Below the pieces are notes generated by a model. The model saw only the letters and a program-made list of their open reading frames with translations, was not told where the DNA came from and made no database searches. From contig MWSW01000012.1 of the NCBI GenBank assembly GCA_002050165.1, positions 1-64,000 of the forward strand: DNA of 64,000 bases, written 5' to 3'. Shown here one piece after another: positions 42,883 to 48,321 of the stretch; position 1 is the first letter of the stretch; each line of letters opens with the position of its first letter. A program made the translations under genes and the position numbers. Origin of the DNA: Candidatus Tepidiaquacellales bacterium OLB4/UTCHB1. GTDB taxonomy: Bacteria; Bacteroidota; Ignavibacteria; Tepidaquicellales; Tepidaquicellaceae.

Positions 42883-43635
42883 GTGATTATAATCGGAAAA
42901 AACCCTATTCTTGAAATTCTAAGGACTAATGCCGGTGAGGTAAATAAGGTTATCCTTCTCAAGACCTTGAAACCTGATGAGAAATTGAAGGAGATAAAAT
43001 CATTTTGTGAGAGGGAAAATATTCCTTTAATGTTTTTAAACAGGTTTCAGTTTGAAAAGTATTTTAACCGTAAAAATAAGCAAGAAGGAATTTCTCAGGG
43101 GTGTGTGGCTTTTACAGAAGATTATAAGTATGCTGACCTGAGCGAAGTTATCTCATCATTAGATTTAAAAACCAATCCGGTACTTGTAATTTTGGATGAA
43201 ATTACTGACCCACAAAACATGGGAGCTATTATAAGGTCTGCATCGTGTCTTGGTGCAGTTGCAGTAGTGATACCCAAACATCGTTCTGCAGAAATTAATC
43301 ACACTGTAATTAAATCTTCATCCGGTGCCGTGAATCATATCCCGGTTACCAGAGAAACTAATCTTGTAAATGCGATTAAATATCTTAAACAAAGCGGATT
43401 CTGGATTGCCGGTACAGACTCATGTGGAGATTCTAATGTTTGTTCAAAAGATTTGAAAATTCCATTAGGTATTGTGATAGGTAGTGAAGGTAAGGGTATC
43501 AGAAAAATTGTACGCGATAATTGTGATTTCATTGTTAAGATTCCTATGTCAGGCACACTTGATTCACTTAACGCATCCGTTTCAGCGGGAATTATTTTAT
43601 ATGAAATATTAAGACAAAAAACTAAAATCAATTAA
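42883..43635 (+). CDS. rlmB: TrmH-family 23S rRNA 2'-O-ribose methyltransferase
   Basis: A 250-residue SPOUT enzyme with a GTG start. An N-terminal L30e-like RNA-binding domain (~1-75, IGKNPILEILRT) precedes the knotted catalytic domain. Motif 1 is DEITDPQNMGAIIRSASCLGA, motif 2 is IVIGSEGKGIRK, and motif 3 is MSGTLDSLNASVSAGIILYE. This is the RlmB pattern (Gm2251 of 23S rRNA), although closely related tRNA enzymes share it. It is directly followed by the DUF3298 gene (1-base gap). Confidence 0.88.
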   Translation: MIIIGKNPILEILRTNAGEVNKVILLKTLKPDEKLKEIKSFCERENIPLMFLNRFQFEKYFNRKNKQEGISQGCVAFTEDYKYADLSEVISSLDLKTNPVLVILDEITDPQNMGAIIRSASCLGAVAVVIPKHRSAEINHTVIKSSSGAVNHIPVTRETNLVNAIKYLKQSGFWIAGTDSCGDSNVCSKDLKIPLGIVIGSEGKGIRKIVRDNCDFIVKIPMSGTLDSLNASVSAGIILYEILRQKTKIN

Positions 43636-43636
43636 A

Positions 43637-44455
43637 ATGAAAAAACTACGTGCTATTTCTATTTTAATCTTTGCAGTTATTTTGGCGATGATTTATATAC
43701 CTTCAGAAACTCTTAAAGCTCAGGATGAAACATCTGACGAGGCAGATAATCTTGAGTATAAGGAATTGACATTTTTCAAATCGTATAATAATTGCGATAC
43801 TTCAAAATCCGAGCCCTGCTCATACGTCAGCGCTGAATGGATAGAATACACATCCGGTAATATAAAAAACCAGTTAAATGAATTTATATCTTCAGTTCTT
43901 ATGGACAGTATGTATTACATTCAATCAGAATCAAAGATTCATAATTCAATTGAAAAAATTGCGGATGACTTCTTAAAAGACTATGAGGATAATGAAGTTG
44001 TTTCGGGCAGGAATTTTCCATGGTACTATCACATAAATTCGCACGAACACTTTAGAAACGATAATGTCGTAGTTCTCAGTTTCATTTCGGATGGCTATAC
44101 AGGTGGCGCACACGGGTTCTGGGTAAATTCATTTTATAATTTCTCCTTAGCAAGCGGAAAAGTGTTGGAACTCGACGATTTTTTAAAACCCGGATTTGAA
44201 ACTGAATTAAATAAGCTCATTGACAGACAATTCAGAAAGGATAATAATCTGAGCCAAACTGAAGATCTTACGACAGGAGCATGGCTTTTCGAGAATAAAA
44301 TTGAATACAATAATAATTTCGCTTTTACGAAAGATGGATTATTGTTTTTTTATAACCAATATGAAATTGCCCCTTACGCAGCAGGTACTATAGAAGTTTT
44401 GATTAAGTACGAAGACTTATCTGATCTGATTTCTGATATTAATATTTTGAATTGA
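43637..44455 (+). CDS. Exported DUF3298/DUF4163 (RsiV-like) protein
   Basis: A 272-residue protein with a signal peptide (~1-28). It has the DUF4163 region (~40-150) and the DUF3298 hallmark DGYTGGAHGFWVNSFYNFSLASG, followed by LELDDFL and the terminal NQYEIAPYAAGTIEVLI. These domains are shared with Bacillus RsiV, which binds lysozyme; free-standing versions in Bacteroidetes have no settled role. It has no anti-sigma N-terminus. Translation is probably coupled to rlmB (1-base gap). Confidence 0.82.
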   Translation: MKKLRAISILIFAVILAMIYIPSETLKAQDETSDEADNLEYKELTFFKSYNNCDTSKSEPCSYVSAEWIEYTSGNIKNQLNEFISSVLMDSMYYIQSESKIHNSIEKIADDFLKDYEDNEVVSGRNFPWYYHINSHEHFRNDNVVVLSFISDGYTGGAHGFWVNSFYNFSLASGKVLELDDFLKPGFETELNKLIDRQFRKDNNLSQTEDLTTGAWLFENKIEYNNNFAFTKDGLLFFYNQYEIAPYAAGTIEVLIKYEDLSDLISDINILN

Positions 44456-44519: not shown

Positions 44520-45881
44520 TCAGTTATCTTTCATTTTGCTTGGTAGAGGAATATTATATTTGCTCATTAATTTGTATAAATGACTTCGTTGAATTGAAAG
44601 CGCCTCCGCAGTTTTTGAAACGTTATACTTGTAGTCGTTTAACATTTTTGAAATAAATATTTTTTCTGTTTCATTTTGAAAATCATTTAACGACATATTT
44701 TTATTAACGAGGTCGGAGATTATCTTATTATGCTTTGTCCCCGGGTATTCTATATCATCTACCTCAATTTCAGTCTTATCCAAACTGAAAATTAAGCGTT
44801 CAATAAAGTTTTTTAGTTCTCTTACATTTCCCGGCCAACGGAATGATTTCAACGTTGACAACGCTTGAGGAGAAAACTTCTTTGCAGGAACGTCATTTGC
44901 TTTGGATATCAAATCAATAAAATATTCAGCAAGAATCTGAATGTCTTCCTGACGCTCTCTTAAAGATGGTATGTTAATGCGAAGAACATTCATTCTATGG
45001 AATAAATCTTCTCTAAACCTGCCATCAGCAATCTCTTGCTGCATATCCTTATTAGTTGAAAAAATATATCTGAGGTCAAGGGAAACTTCCTTATTGTATC
45101 CGGAACGAGTCATTTTATTTTCTTCAATAACTTTGAGTAGTTTAGATTGCGCGTCTAGTGAAAGGTTACTAACTTCATCAAAATAAATTGTTCCGCCGTT
45201 TGCTTCCTCAATTTTCCCTTTCATTACAAGCTTTCCGGATTCAAACAATCCGAATAATTCAACATCAATTTTATCGTTAGAAATGTTGGCGCAATTAATT
45301 TTAACGAATGCATTTTCTGCACGTGCGGATTTGTAATGCAATTGTCTGGCAATGATATCTTTTCCTGTTCCACTTTCACCCGATATGAAAATGTTTGAAT
45401 CTACTTTCACATACTTGTCAATTAGCTCTTTAACTTCAAGTATTTCCTTGCTGGTACCTATGAGTTCAATTCCTTCCGATAAGCCACTTTTCAGGCGCTT
45501 GATTTCATCCCGTGATTTTTTGAAATCAATTGCATTCTTAAAAATTATTTTCAATTCCGGTAAATCCGGAAATGGTTTTTGAAGGAAGTTATAAGCACCC
45601 TTCTTTGTGGATTCAACCGCAGTTTCTATTGTACCGTGACCTGAAATCATTATAACTACAACATCCGGTTTAATTTGCTTTACTTTTTCCAAAGTTTCCA
45701 AACCATCTAATCCAGGCATTTTTATATCAAGCAAGACAAGTTCATAATCATTATCAGTAATTTTTTCGATAGCAGAATATCCATCGTTGCAGCTATCAGT
45801 TGAGTATCCCTCATGTTCAAGAATCAAACGTAAGGAATCAACTATGTTTTGTTCATCATCAACAATTAAAACTTTTACCAT
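44520..45881 (-). CDS. NtrC-type response regulator lacking the GAFTGA loop
   Basis: A 453-residue regulator in three parts. The receiver domain (1-~120) carries the phospho-acceptor Asp52 (LLDIKMPGLDG). The AAA+ domain (~138-365) has Walker A GESGTGKD (168-175), Walker B IYFDEV (232-237) and the arginine-containing GRFREDLFHRMNV. A Fis-type helix-turn-helix is C-terminal (~405-445). The loop that contacts sigma-54 should read GAFTGA after ELFG, but here ELFGLFESGKLVMKG replaces it and is shorter. By family knowledge it should therefore not activate sigma-54 promoters. No sensor kinase is adjacent. Confidence 0.88.
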   Translation of the reverse strand: MVKVLIVDDEQNIVDSLRLILEHEGYSTDSCNDGYSAIEKITDNDYELVLLDIKMPGLDGLETLEKVKQIKPDVVVIMISGHGTIETAVESTKKGAYNFLQKPFPDLPELKIIFKNAIDFKKSRDEIKRLKSGLSEGIELIGTSKEILEVKELIDKYVKVDSNIFISGESGTGKDIIARQLHYKSARAENAFVKINCANISNDKIDVELFGLFESGKLVMKGKIEEANGGTIYFDEVSNLSLDAQSKLLKVIEENKMTRSGYNKEVSLDLRYIFSTNKDMQQEIADGRFREDLFHRMNVLRINIPSLRERQEDIQILAEYFIDLISKANDVPAKKFSPQALSTLKSFRWPGNVRELKNFIERLIFSLDKTEIEVDDIEYPGTKHNKIISDLVNKNMSLNDFQNETEKIFISKMLNDYKYNVSKTAEALSIQRSHLYKLMSKYNIPLPSKMKDN

Positions 45882-45978: not shown

Positions 45979-48321
45979 TTAAATACTTACAATCGTAACT
46001 CCTGTATCACCTTCATTCCAGTTTCCGTAACGGAATTCTTTTACTGCAGGGTTATTCTTTAAACTCTGTTTAACTGCTTCCCTAAGTTTACCTGTTCCTT
46101 TACCGTGTATGATGCTCACCTGATTCAACCCATTTATTTGTGCTTCCGAGAGAAATCTTTCAATCAACAAGTTCGCTTCTTCAGGATATAATCCTCTGAG
46201 ATCGAGCTCCGTTGATATTTCGGAAGTATTGACTTCTATCAGGTTATCAGTGGAATTACGTTCTCTTAATTCACTTTGATCAATTTTCTCAAGTTTATTT
46301 AACCCGACCTTTACCAAAATTCCGTTCATGTTTACAGAAACATTTTCACCGTCTGATTTAATTACCTTACCAATTGAACCTGAATTTTTAATTTTGACAA
46401 CGTCTCCCTTGTTAATTTCACCGATTTCTATTTTCTCGCTCGTATCCTGAATTTCTGTGAGATTTTTTGCTGTCCTCTGAAACCCGGTAACAACTTTTTT
46501 AATCTCCGATTTATTTTCCCTGATATCTCTTATCGTCCTGTCAATAAGTTTTTTCGCATTGTTAATAATTCCGGATGCCTCGAGTTTCGCTTCGTTTAAA
46601 ATTAATCGTTTATTCTTTTCGAGTTCTGAAATCTTCGATTCATATAATTTTGTGAGTCCACTTAATCGGGCTCGTTCGAGCTCATTTGAATTTTTTAGAT
46701 TTTCAAATTTCTGTTTGTTTATATTTAATTCCTTGATGAGATCTTCCAAATCCGAACCGGATGAACCTGAAAGCTCTCTTGCATAATTTAATATTGATTC
46801 GGGATAATTATATTTTGAGGCTATTTCAAACGTAAAACTCTGACCGGGCACACCTATTGAAAATTTGTAATTCGGTGAAAGTGTTTTATGATTGAATTCC
46901 AACGAAGCATTTTCAATGCCTTCTGTATTGTAAGCAAATATTTTTAGTTCACCGATATGAGTAGTTACAATAGTGGATACACCTGATTCAGTCAGATGTT
47001 TCAAAATAGCAGAAGACAAAGCACTTCCCAACAATGGGTCTGTTCCACTGCATATTTCGTCAATCAAAACTAAAGATGAACTATCCGCATTGTCTATTAT
47101 TCCCTTCAAAGATTTTAAATGCGAGCTGAACGTTGATAAATCGTTATCAATAGATTGTTCATCACCAATATTTACAAAGATATCCTTAAACAATCTCATT
47201 TCCGTATTATCTGCAACAGGCAGTAAAATACCGCACTGAAACATTAATTGAAGTAACCCGACAGTTTTCAATGCGACTGTTTTCCCACCGGCGTTCGGAC
47301 CCGTGATGATTATAGTTTTAATTTTATTGTCCATCGAAATGTCCAACGGAATTATGTCAGAGCGTTTATGATTTTGAAGGAGAATCGGGTGATAAGCGTT
47401 TTTTATATTAAAGTGTGACTCTGATAGTTTCGGGAGAACAGCATTAATTTCATTAGCATACTTAGACTTTGCTTGCAAAAAATCTATTTCTGAAAGTATT
47501 TCACAGTTAACTTCAAGTTCACTTACTTTTTCAGACACCTGTGAACTGATTTCTATAAGTATTCTTTGGATTTCGCGATTAATTTTATATCTGATTTCCG
47601 TAATTTCATTATTGAGTTCAATGGTTTCGCCCGGCTCAATAAATACGGTTGATCCTGAAGCTGAAGCTGAATGAATGATACCCGGAACCGACCGTTTGTT
47701 TTCAACTTTCACCGGAATAACAAATCTGCCCTCCCTTAGTGTAATAATTTCATCCTGAGATATCTCCCTTTCTGAATAATGCCGGAGCAATTTCAACAGG
47801 GTTTTTCGCAAGTGCTCTTCCTTCGAAGACAAAGATGATCTGAGTTTCCTTAACTCTATCGAAGCAGAGTCTTTAACTTCCCCATCATCATCTACAGTAA
47901 TGTTAATATTGTGCTCGAGTAACTTGTCAGTGTGAATGTCTTTACAGATACCAAACAAGTTATTGCATTCAGAAGCATAGGTCCTCTCTTTTGAATCAAA
48001 ATAACTTTTGACTCGCCTTGATACCTGTAAAAATGAGAGTACTTTCAGAAGCTCGGCGGAGGAAATGAAACTTCCATCAATCCTCAGAATTTTTAAGAGA
48101 TATCTGATATCGGATAATCCGCTTAAGTCAATCTCACCTTCGACATTTATCAGATACCGCATCTGGTCAGTTTTTCGGAGTTCTTGAATTAACTCATCTA
48201 GATTTGTTAAAAATTCCAGATTATCAATTTTAACTGATGGAAGATCAGATGAAAAATATTGTGAGATACGGTTCGTTATTTTGTGGAACTCAAGTTTTTC
48301 CTTTAACTCTTTGATGTTCAT
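45979..48321 (-). CDS. mutS2: MutS2 ATPase/endonuclease
   Basis: A 780-residue protein with the MutS2 order: core and clamp region, ATPase with Walker A GPNAGGKTVALK, LIDEICSGTDPLLGSAL (Walker B) and TTHIGELK, a coiled-coil, a KOW-like segment (GEINKGDVVKIKN...GSIGKVI), and a C-terminal Smr nuclease domain (ELDLRGLYPEEA and IIHGKGTGKLREAV). MutS2 suppresses recombination and, in Bacillus, splits collided ribosomes; it is not a mismatch repair protein. The ATG overlaps the cvpA stop by four bases. Confidence 0.94.
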   Translation of the reverse strand: MNIKELKEKLEFHKITNRISQYFSSDLPSVKIDNLEFLTNLDELIQELRKTDQMRYLINVEGEIDLSGLSDIRYLLKILRIDGSFISSAELLKVLSFLQVSRRVKSYFDSKERTYASECNNLFGICKDIHTDKLLEHNINITVDDDGEVKDSASIELRKLRSSLSSKEEHLRKTLLKLLRHYSEREISQDEIITLREGRFVIPVKVENKRSVPGIIHSASASGSTVFIEPGETIELNNEITEIRYKINREIQRILIEISSQVSEKVSELEVNCEILSEIDFLQAKSKYANEINAVLPKLSESHFNIKNAYHPILLQNHKRSDIIPLDISMDNKIKTIIITGPNAGGKTVALKTVGLLQLMFQCGILLPVADNTEMRLFKDIFVNIGDEQSIDNDLSTFSSHLKSLKGIIDNADSSSLVLIDEICSGTDPLLGSALSSAILKHLTESGVSTIVTTHIGELKIFAYNTEGIENASLEFNHKTLSPNYKFSIGVPGQSFTFEIASKYNYPESILNYARELSGSSGSDLEDLIKELNINKQKFENLKNSNELERARLSGLTKLYESKISELEKNKRLILNEAKLEASGIINNAKKLIDRTIRDIRENKSEIKKVVTGFQRTAKNLTEIQDTSEKIEIGEINKGDVVKIKNSGSIGKVIKSDGENVSVNMNGILVKVGLNKLEKIDQSELRERNSTDNLIEVNTSEISTELDLRGLYPEEANLLIERFLSEAQINGLNQVSIIHGKGTGKLREAVKQSLKNNPAVKEFRYGNWNEGDTGVTIVSI

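Follow-up and report, generated by a model that had tools for sequence, protein, structure and literature searches.

The NtrC proteins of Caulobacter and R. capsulatus have no GAFTGA loop and are reported to work at sigma-70 promoters (PMC10274813). In the same paper, ATP binding, not hydrolysis, is essential for R. capsulatus NtrC, and VpsR (printed there as VspR) needs no ATP. TyrR, DhaR and HupR, bEBP relatives in which GAFTGA is defective as it is in VpsR, are given as sigma-70 dependent in a survey that lists PhhR as a TyrR paralogue and judges VpsR and YplP as probably not sigma-54 activators (PMC3162934). An initial annotation of the locus studied here had named TyrR, PhhR and HupR as working with sigma-70; the survey upholds this for TyrR and HupR, with PhhR entering only through its paralogy to TyrR. 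In S. meliloti, the response regulator NtrX recognises CAAN2-5TTG and requires Asp53; it is a repressor of ctrA and gcrA and an activator of dnaA (PMC9223101). The strain used there differs from the strain that we fetched for the loop check, in which NtrX is also without the loop.

The regulator compared with these proteins is encoded in the window, by which we mean the whole 64,000-nt stretch of DNA that was analysed. Its gene (44520..45881, minus strand; an ORF with an ATG start, supported by Pfam and NCBIfam matches) encodes a 453-residue, NtrX-like response regulator without GAFTGA. All four domains lie on the minus strand and matched their Pfam models above cut-off: a receiver domain at residues 4-106 (45564..45872; PF00072, Response_reg), an AAA+ domain at residues 140-302 (44976..45464; PF00158, Sigma54_activat), an AAA+ lid at residues 308-378 (44748..44960; PF25601, AAA_lid_14) with the sensor II stretch WPGNVREL, and a Fis-type helix-turn-helix at residues 404-442 (44556..44672; PF02954, HTH_8) with the stretch IQRSHLY. 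Directly after ELFG the protein reads LFESGKLVMKGKIEEANGGT, and by sequence and loop alignment a shortened L1 loop, LFESGKLVMK (residues 212-221; 45219..45248, minus strand), takes the place of the GAFTGA loop. The window regulator thus has an otherwise intact NtrC-family layout without GAFTGA.

The initial annotation had described the sigma-54 contact loop after ELFG as replaced and shortened, and the other NtrC modules as intact. The loop claim was confirmed, the loop being four residues short, and the claim of intact modules was borne out for the residues examined, by conservation counts in the window's own family (f1). Asp52 (45726-45728, minus strand), which we take by homology to be the phospho-acceptor, was present in 27 of 27 sequences. 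The same holds for Lys174 of Walker A, the Walker B pair Asp235 and Glu236, Asn277 of sensor I, Arg296, and Arg354 of sensor II; Arg290 was kept in 26 of 27. By these residue counts the protein has the AAA+ core of a bEBP, with Walker A and B, sensors and arginine fingers, and the GAFTGA-type L1 loop was found in none of the 27.

The nearest solved relative is NtrX of Brucella, with 5m7n the best PDB sequence match (305 bits, versus 163 bits for the more distant VpsR entry 7v2b) and 5m7p, 5m7o and 5m7n the best fold matches. This kinship had been overlooked in the initial annotation. NtrX (NF051870) was also the best NCBIfam model, at 399 bits under a model cut-off of 600 bits. The five alphaproteobacterial NtrX that we compared, from Brucella, S. 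meliloti, Azospirillum, Sphingomonas and Paracoccus, share the REC-AAA+-Fis layout of the window regulator, and all five likewise lack GAFTGA, their loops being 2-4 residues short. This sample comprises Brucella NtrX and four of seven fetched plasmid matches, 54-80% identical to it, taken from among the matches listed (25 of 539). The remaining three (38-39% identical) carry the motif, as GAFTGA in Indioceanicola (L226) and Pelobacter (L225) and GAFTDA in Azonexus (L224); Indioceanicola is an alphaproteobacterium, and its protein joined the five NtrX with weak support (92/77). The window regulator differs from NtrX in several respects: identity is about 35%, the five NtrX and f1 form separate clades, the Walker A sequences differ, and the sensor I asparagine is absent from three of the five NtrX and kept in the window regulator. 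Caulobacter and R. capsulatus NtrC are, like the window regulator, NtrC-type proteins without the GAFTGA loop, although both are named NtrC and the window protein is NtrX-like; the deletion spans eight residues in Caulobacter NtrC and is larger in R. capsulatus (PMC10274813), compared with four or five in f1. HupR, TyrR, DhaR and VpsR belong to other lineages than the window regulator.

We then compared the loop across orthologues found by searching 245 genomes of the class. Orthologues were present in 27 of the 29 f1 genomes, window included (G063 and G235 had no strong orthologue and are outside the 27), and in all 15 genomes of a sister family in the same order (f2; L037, L038, L072-L075, L077-L079, L083, L086, L089 and L180-L182). 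From other families the loop count covers 64 sequences from 62 of 201 genomes, the remaining 139 genomes being outside it; three of these sequences (L209-L211) group with another paralogue in the 98-row tree described below. A MAG record labelled Chryseobacterium (L047), whose loop reads GSFTGA, was excluded from the loop count and the second tree and kept among the 34 'out' rows of the first tree and of the residue counts. The eight named f1-type records (L040-L046, L048) bear the label Ignavibacteria(e) in seven cases and Bacteroidetes in one. A GAFTGA-type motif was found in 0 of 27 f1 sequences, 0 of 15 f2 sequences and 64 of 64 fetched from other families (63 strict G[AS]FTGA and one GSFTSA). 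Counted from LFG, the Walker B acidic pair lay 23 residues away in 17 f1 rows and 22 in the other 10, compared with 27 in every f2 row and in all 64 sequences from other families, so that the f1 loop is four or five residues short in the loop alignment (n = 27). The f2 loop, a second point missed by the initial annotation, has its full length and a different text, with the consensus CVExYLxxSPxKRxG (YLSFSP-like) across three genera; five of the 15 rows (L073, L074, L075, L079, L182) differ from it at a single position. The GAFTGA-bearing orthologues of the same class have the same domains as the window regulator and an almost identical DNA-recognition stretch, and differ in having GAFTGA or GSFTGA in a loop of normal length.

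The absence of GAFTGA from all 27 f1 orthologues, window included, indicates that the missing loop is not an error, and the check for the motif in close orthologues thereby contradicted a local deletion or sequencing mistake. A decaying gene could account for the variability of the f1 loop, and another loop-less paralogue of the same genome (L004) looks eroded. Against this, the orthologue is kept in 27 of 29 family genomes, internal stops are absent from 25 of the 27 matches (the other two contain one TAA each), the catalytic residues are conserved and the short loop recurs in 27 of 27. Decay or error is therefore extremely improbable, and error as the cause of the missing loop was ruled out by the same recurrence. 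The mean pairwise identity of L1, compared with that of the remainder of the AAA+ region, was 0.219 versus 0.562 in f1, 0.814 versus 0.758 in f2 and 0.760 versus 0.641 in the GAFTGA-bearing group; the f2 figure partly reflects closeness, since 13 of its 15 rows come from one genus. Among the four regions measured, L1 had the lowest identity in f1 and the highest in the GAFTGA-bearing group. On these alignments the f1 loop appears to have escaped constraint, and the f2 loop to remain under it.

An alternative is that the window regulator still activates the sigma-54 polymerase, through another surface or through the residual hairpin. RpoN remains available for this. All 44 genomes of the order contain the Sigma54_DBD, and region I, the activator-binding part that GAFTGA contacts, was found in all five genomes tested, the regulator's own among them, which answers positively the check for rpoN proposed in the initial annotation. 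Loss of RpoN was considered as the cause of the missing loop and was ruled out by its presence in all 44 genomes. Retained RpoN with region I and the conserved catalytic residues are what retained sigma-54 activation would predict. A surface in contact with the polymerase should however be constrained, and L1 is the least conserved of the four regions in f1 and the most conserved in the GAFTGA-bearing group. Together with two surveys in which GAFTGA is considered essential (PMC3162934, PMC12316311), this makes continued sigma-54 activation quite unlikely.

We also assessed the other bEBPs of these genomes. The regulator's own genome gave eight PF00158 matches, four of them strong: two with GAFTGA or GSFTGA (L001 and L002), and the window regulator and L004 without it. 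Seven relatives contained 35 bEBP domains (E up to 1e-20), of which seven were the orthologue of the window regulator; 26 of the remaining 28 carried G[AS][FY]T[GD]A and two GSFEGA. Four other bEBPs of the order (L155, L157, L169 and L173) were noted to carry GAFTDA or GAYTDA instead of GAFTGA. With two GAFTGA-type bEBPs in its own genome and with AAA+ arginines 290 and 296, presumably subunit-interface residues, kept, the regulator could act through other bEBPs, as a partner in mixed rings or by competing for their sites and so dampening sigma-54 activation. Its helix-turn-helix sequence is however that of its own orthologue group and not that of the paralogues, and the flanks examined, which are short, contained one match to the regulator per locus. 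We consider such an indirect role unlikely.

The second bEBP-type response regulator without GAFTGA in this genome, L004 (1075-2454, in the G000:C6:130227 region), which the initial annotation had not mentioned, reads NLFGVSDTGEGVAKLGYLE. Its Walker B motif is LDDI (Glu to Asp), its sensor I TSND (Asn to Ser), and Arg296 is replaced by Ile; it looks, from these substitutions, like an eroded motor, unlike the window protein. Its relatives L171 and L174 carry GSFEGA along with other substitutions. A scan of the whole genome with the sigma-54 promoter pattern TGGYACRNNNNTTGCW returned two sites, compared with one in the reversed control, which is too few to define a regulon. From this set of two, it was noted that a sigma-54-type promoter sequence, TGGCACGGAAGTTGCT, precedes an Hsp20 gene by about 50 bases (G000:C8:223323-223338, L229), downstream of which is a gene reading as DnaK by eye. 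The sequences upstream of the f1 and f2 genes were compared by eye for an autoregulatory operator, and no common site was apparent.

To place the loop change in the history of the gene, two trees were built. In the first (98 rows, with the loop columns removed), f1 (27 rows) and f2 (15 rows) each formed one clade with support 100 and were sisters with support 98, and together they grouped with the GAFTGA-bearing orthologues (99), away from the paralogues. The second tree contained 57 rows, thinned to 14 of 27 f1, 9 of 15 f2 and 17 others and including the five alphaproteobacterial NtrX. In this tree f1 and f2 were again joined (100/98), the pair grouped with the GAFTGA-bearing members of the class (100/99), and the five NtrX (100/100) fell outside; f1 and f2 may be nested within the GAFTGA-bearing group or stand beside it. 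The trait requires two changes on this tree, a count that fits gain and loss alike. Because the motif is carried by the paralogues, by NtrC4 and by almost every other bEBP in these genomes, we infer from the sequences that GAFTGA was lost in this lineage.

Arrival of the loop-less form with an alphaproteobacterial NtrX, through gene transfer, would explain why all five NtrX lack GAFTGA and have loops 2-4 residues short, and AU tests did not reject f1 grouped with Brucella NtrX (p = 0.246) or with all five NtrX (p = 0.078). A clade of f1, f2 and the five NtrX was rejected however (p = 0.024), the second tree places both families with GAFTGA-bearing class members, and neighbouring genes tie the families together. 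CvpA and tolPAL-like neighbours link f1 to f2, and a SpoU-like neighbour links f1 to some other families. Transfer of this kind is accordingly given a very low probability.

In the window, a mutS2-like gene (45979..48321, minus strand; Pfam MutS_V and Smr) lies upstream of the regulator on the same strand, and a SpoU-family RNA methyltransferase gene (42883..43635, plus strand; Pfam) is convergent with it. Beside the SpoU gene, and also convergent with the regulator, a gene at 43637-44455 contains DUF3298 and a sub-threshold match to PdaC. MutS2 was found within 1.5 kb of the regulator at 14 of 27 f1 loci and at seven of eight further named loci, and elsewhere another gene intervenes. The order tolPAL-like, yqeY-like, cvpA, mutS2, regulator was seen at seven of the eight named longer f1 loci, L043 being too short to show it; the tolPAL-like and yqeY-like labels at f1 and f2 loci are our assumption. 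At f2 loci with enough flank, tolPAL-like genes and cvpA adjoin the regulator and mutS2 had no match, and 8 of the 28 GAFTGA-bearing loci examined from other families are flanked by a convergent SpoU-like gene. This shared gene order favours vertical descent of the regulator. A GAFTGA-less NtrC-family regulator is a known kind; the staged change within one gene lineage and its host lineage is the new part.

None of the genome's 21 HATPase_c matches lies inside the window, and the only kinase-like matches in the examined flanks were at L047 and L101, neither of which belongs to f1 or f2. The window regulator thus has no adjacent kinase, in contrast to the adjacent ntrY in S. meliloti. A search of its own genome with the C-terminal 499 residues of S. 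meliloti NtrY gave as best match a membrane kinase at G000:C8:182202-184418 (L227, L231; 1.7e-29), with HAMP and HATPase_c above their cut-offs and HisKA below; its best 25 NCBIfam matches included no NtrY model. Of the 44 genomes of the order, 42 have one copy of this NtrY-like kinase (E up to 1e-40), and the two genomes without it are 77% and 64% complete. Although co-presence in 42 of 44 genomes is no proof of pairing, the unlinked kinase is a candidate partner of the window regulator.

An AlphaFold model built from nine sequences (mean pLDDT 84.6, pTM 0.58) placed the L1 loop in a predicted short beta hairpin, with DSSP strands at 211-214 and 217-221. The top fold matches were six chains from the three Brucella NtrX entries, one of which is an ATP complex by its title, followed by NtrC4 and NtrC1. 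TM-scores were about 0.6, with rmsd values of up to 12 over the full length, which is compatible with uncertain domain placement in the model.

Taken together, we consider it likely that this NtrX-like response regulator belongs to a lineage that abandoned sigma-54 activation and kept the switch and the motor core, and that it works as a phosphorylation- and ATP-controlled activator or repressor at promoters of the primary sigma factor. The initial annotation had proposed action through the primary sigma factor or as a repressor; this stands as the best-supported reading, though still a conditional one, because the motif is lost throughout f1 and f2, RpoN is kept, and loop-less precedents are described in PMC10274813, PMC3162934 and PMC9223101. 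We infer the regulon, kinase, phosphorylation, ATP turnover, oligomeric form, primary-sigma promoter use and direction (activator or repressor) of the window regulator. A sensor kinase, with the unlinked NtrY-like protein as the candidate (G000:C8:182202-184418), would phosphorylate Asp52, upon which the AAA+ domain, binding and probably hydrolysing ATP, would assemble on palindromic operators that the Fis-type helix recognises. The assembled regulator would then activate or repress promoters of the primary sigma factor. Because the IQRSHLY stretch is near-invariant across f1, f2 and the GAFTGA-bearing orthologues, the operator that is read probably did not change among these groups. Against this primary-sigma reading, the analysis turned up no target promoter and no kinase gene next to the regulator, and AAA+ motifs this intact would also suit a protein that still remodels something. 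Precedent alone leaves the retained hydrolysis residues unexplained, because ATP is needed to different extents by the known loop-less relatives (PMC10274813).

More tentatively, and as a possibility that we regard as doubtful, one gene lineage of the order may record a staged sigma-factor switch. From a GAFTGA-bearing ancestor, the f2 loop would have been rewritten at the same length to a conserved surface (CVExYLxxSPxKRxG) binding a new partner, and the f1 loop would have been excised, the complete ATPase serving as a nucleotide-timed assembly switch, with operators constant and promoters passing from sigma-54 to the primary sigma factor. Among the matches listed in a search of open-licence papers, we found no description of this regulator in Ignavibacteria. 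Public annotation names loop-less relatives sigma-54 regulators, such as the Sphingomonas and Paracoccus genes, and the whole order is likely misannotated in the same way. The finding raises the question of why the hydrolysis residues persist once the sigma-54 contact is gone. With GAFTGA, a rewritten loop and a cut loop all found in one gene, and with RpoN and the DNA-reading stretch constant, the evolution of sigma-factor dependence becomes testable in a single lineage.
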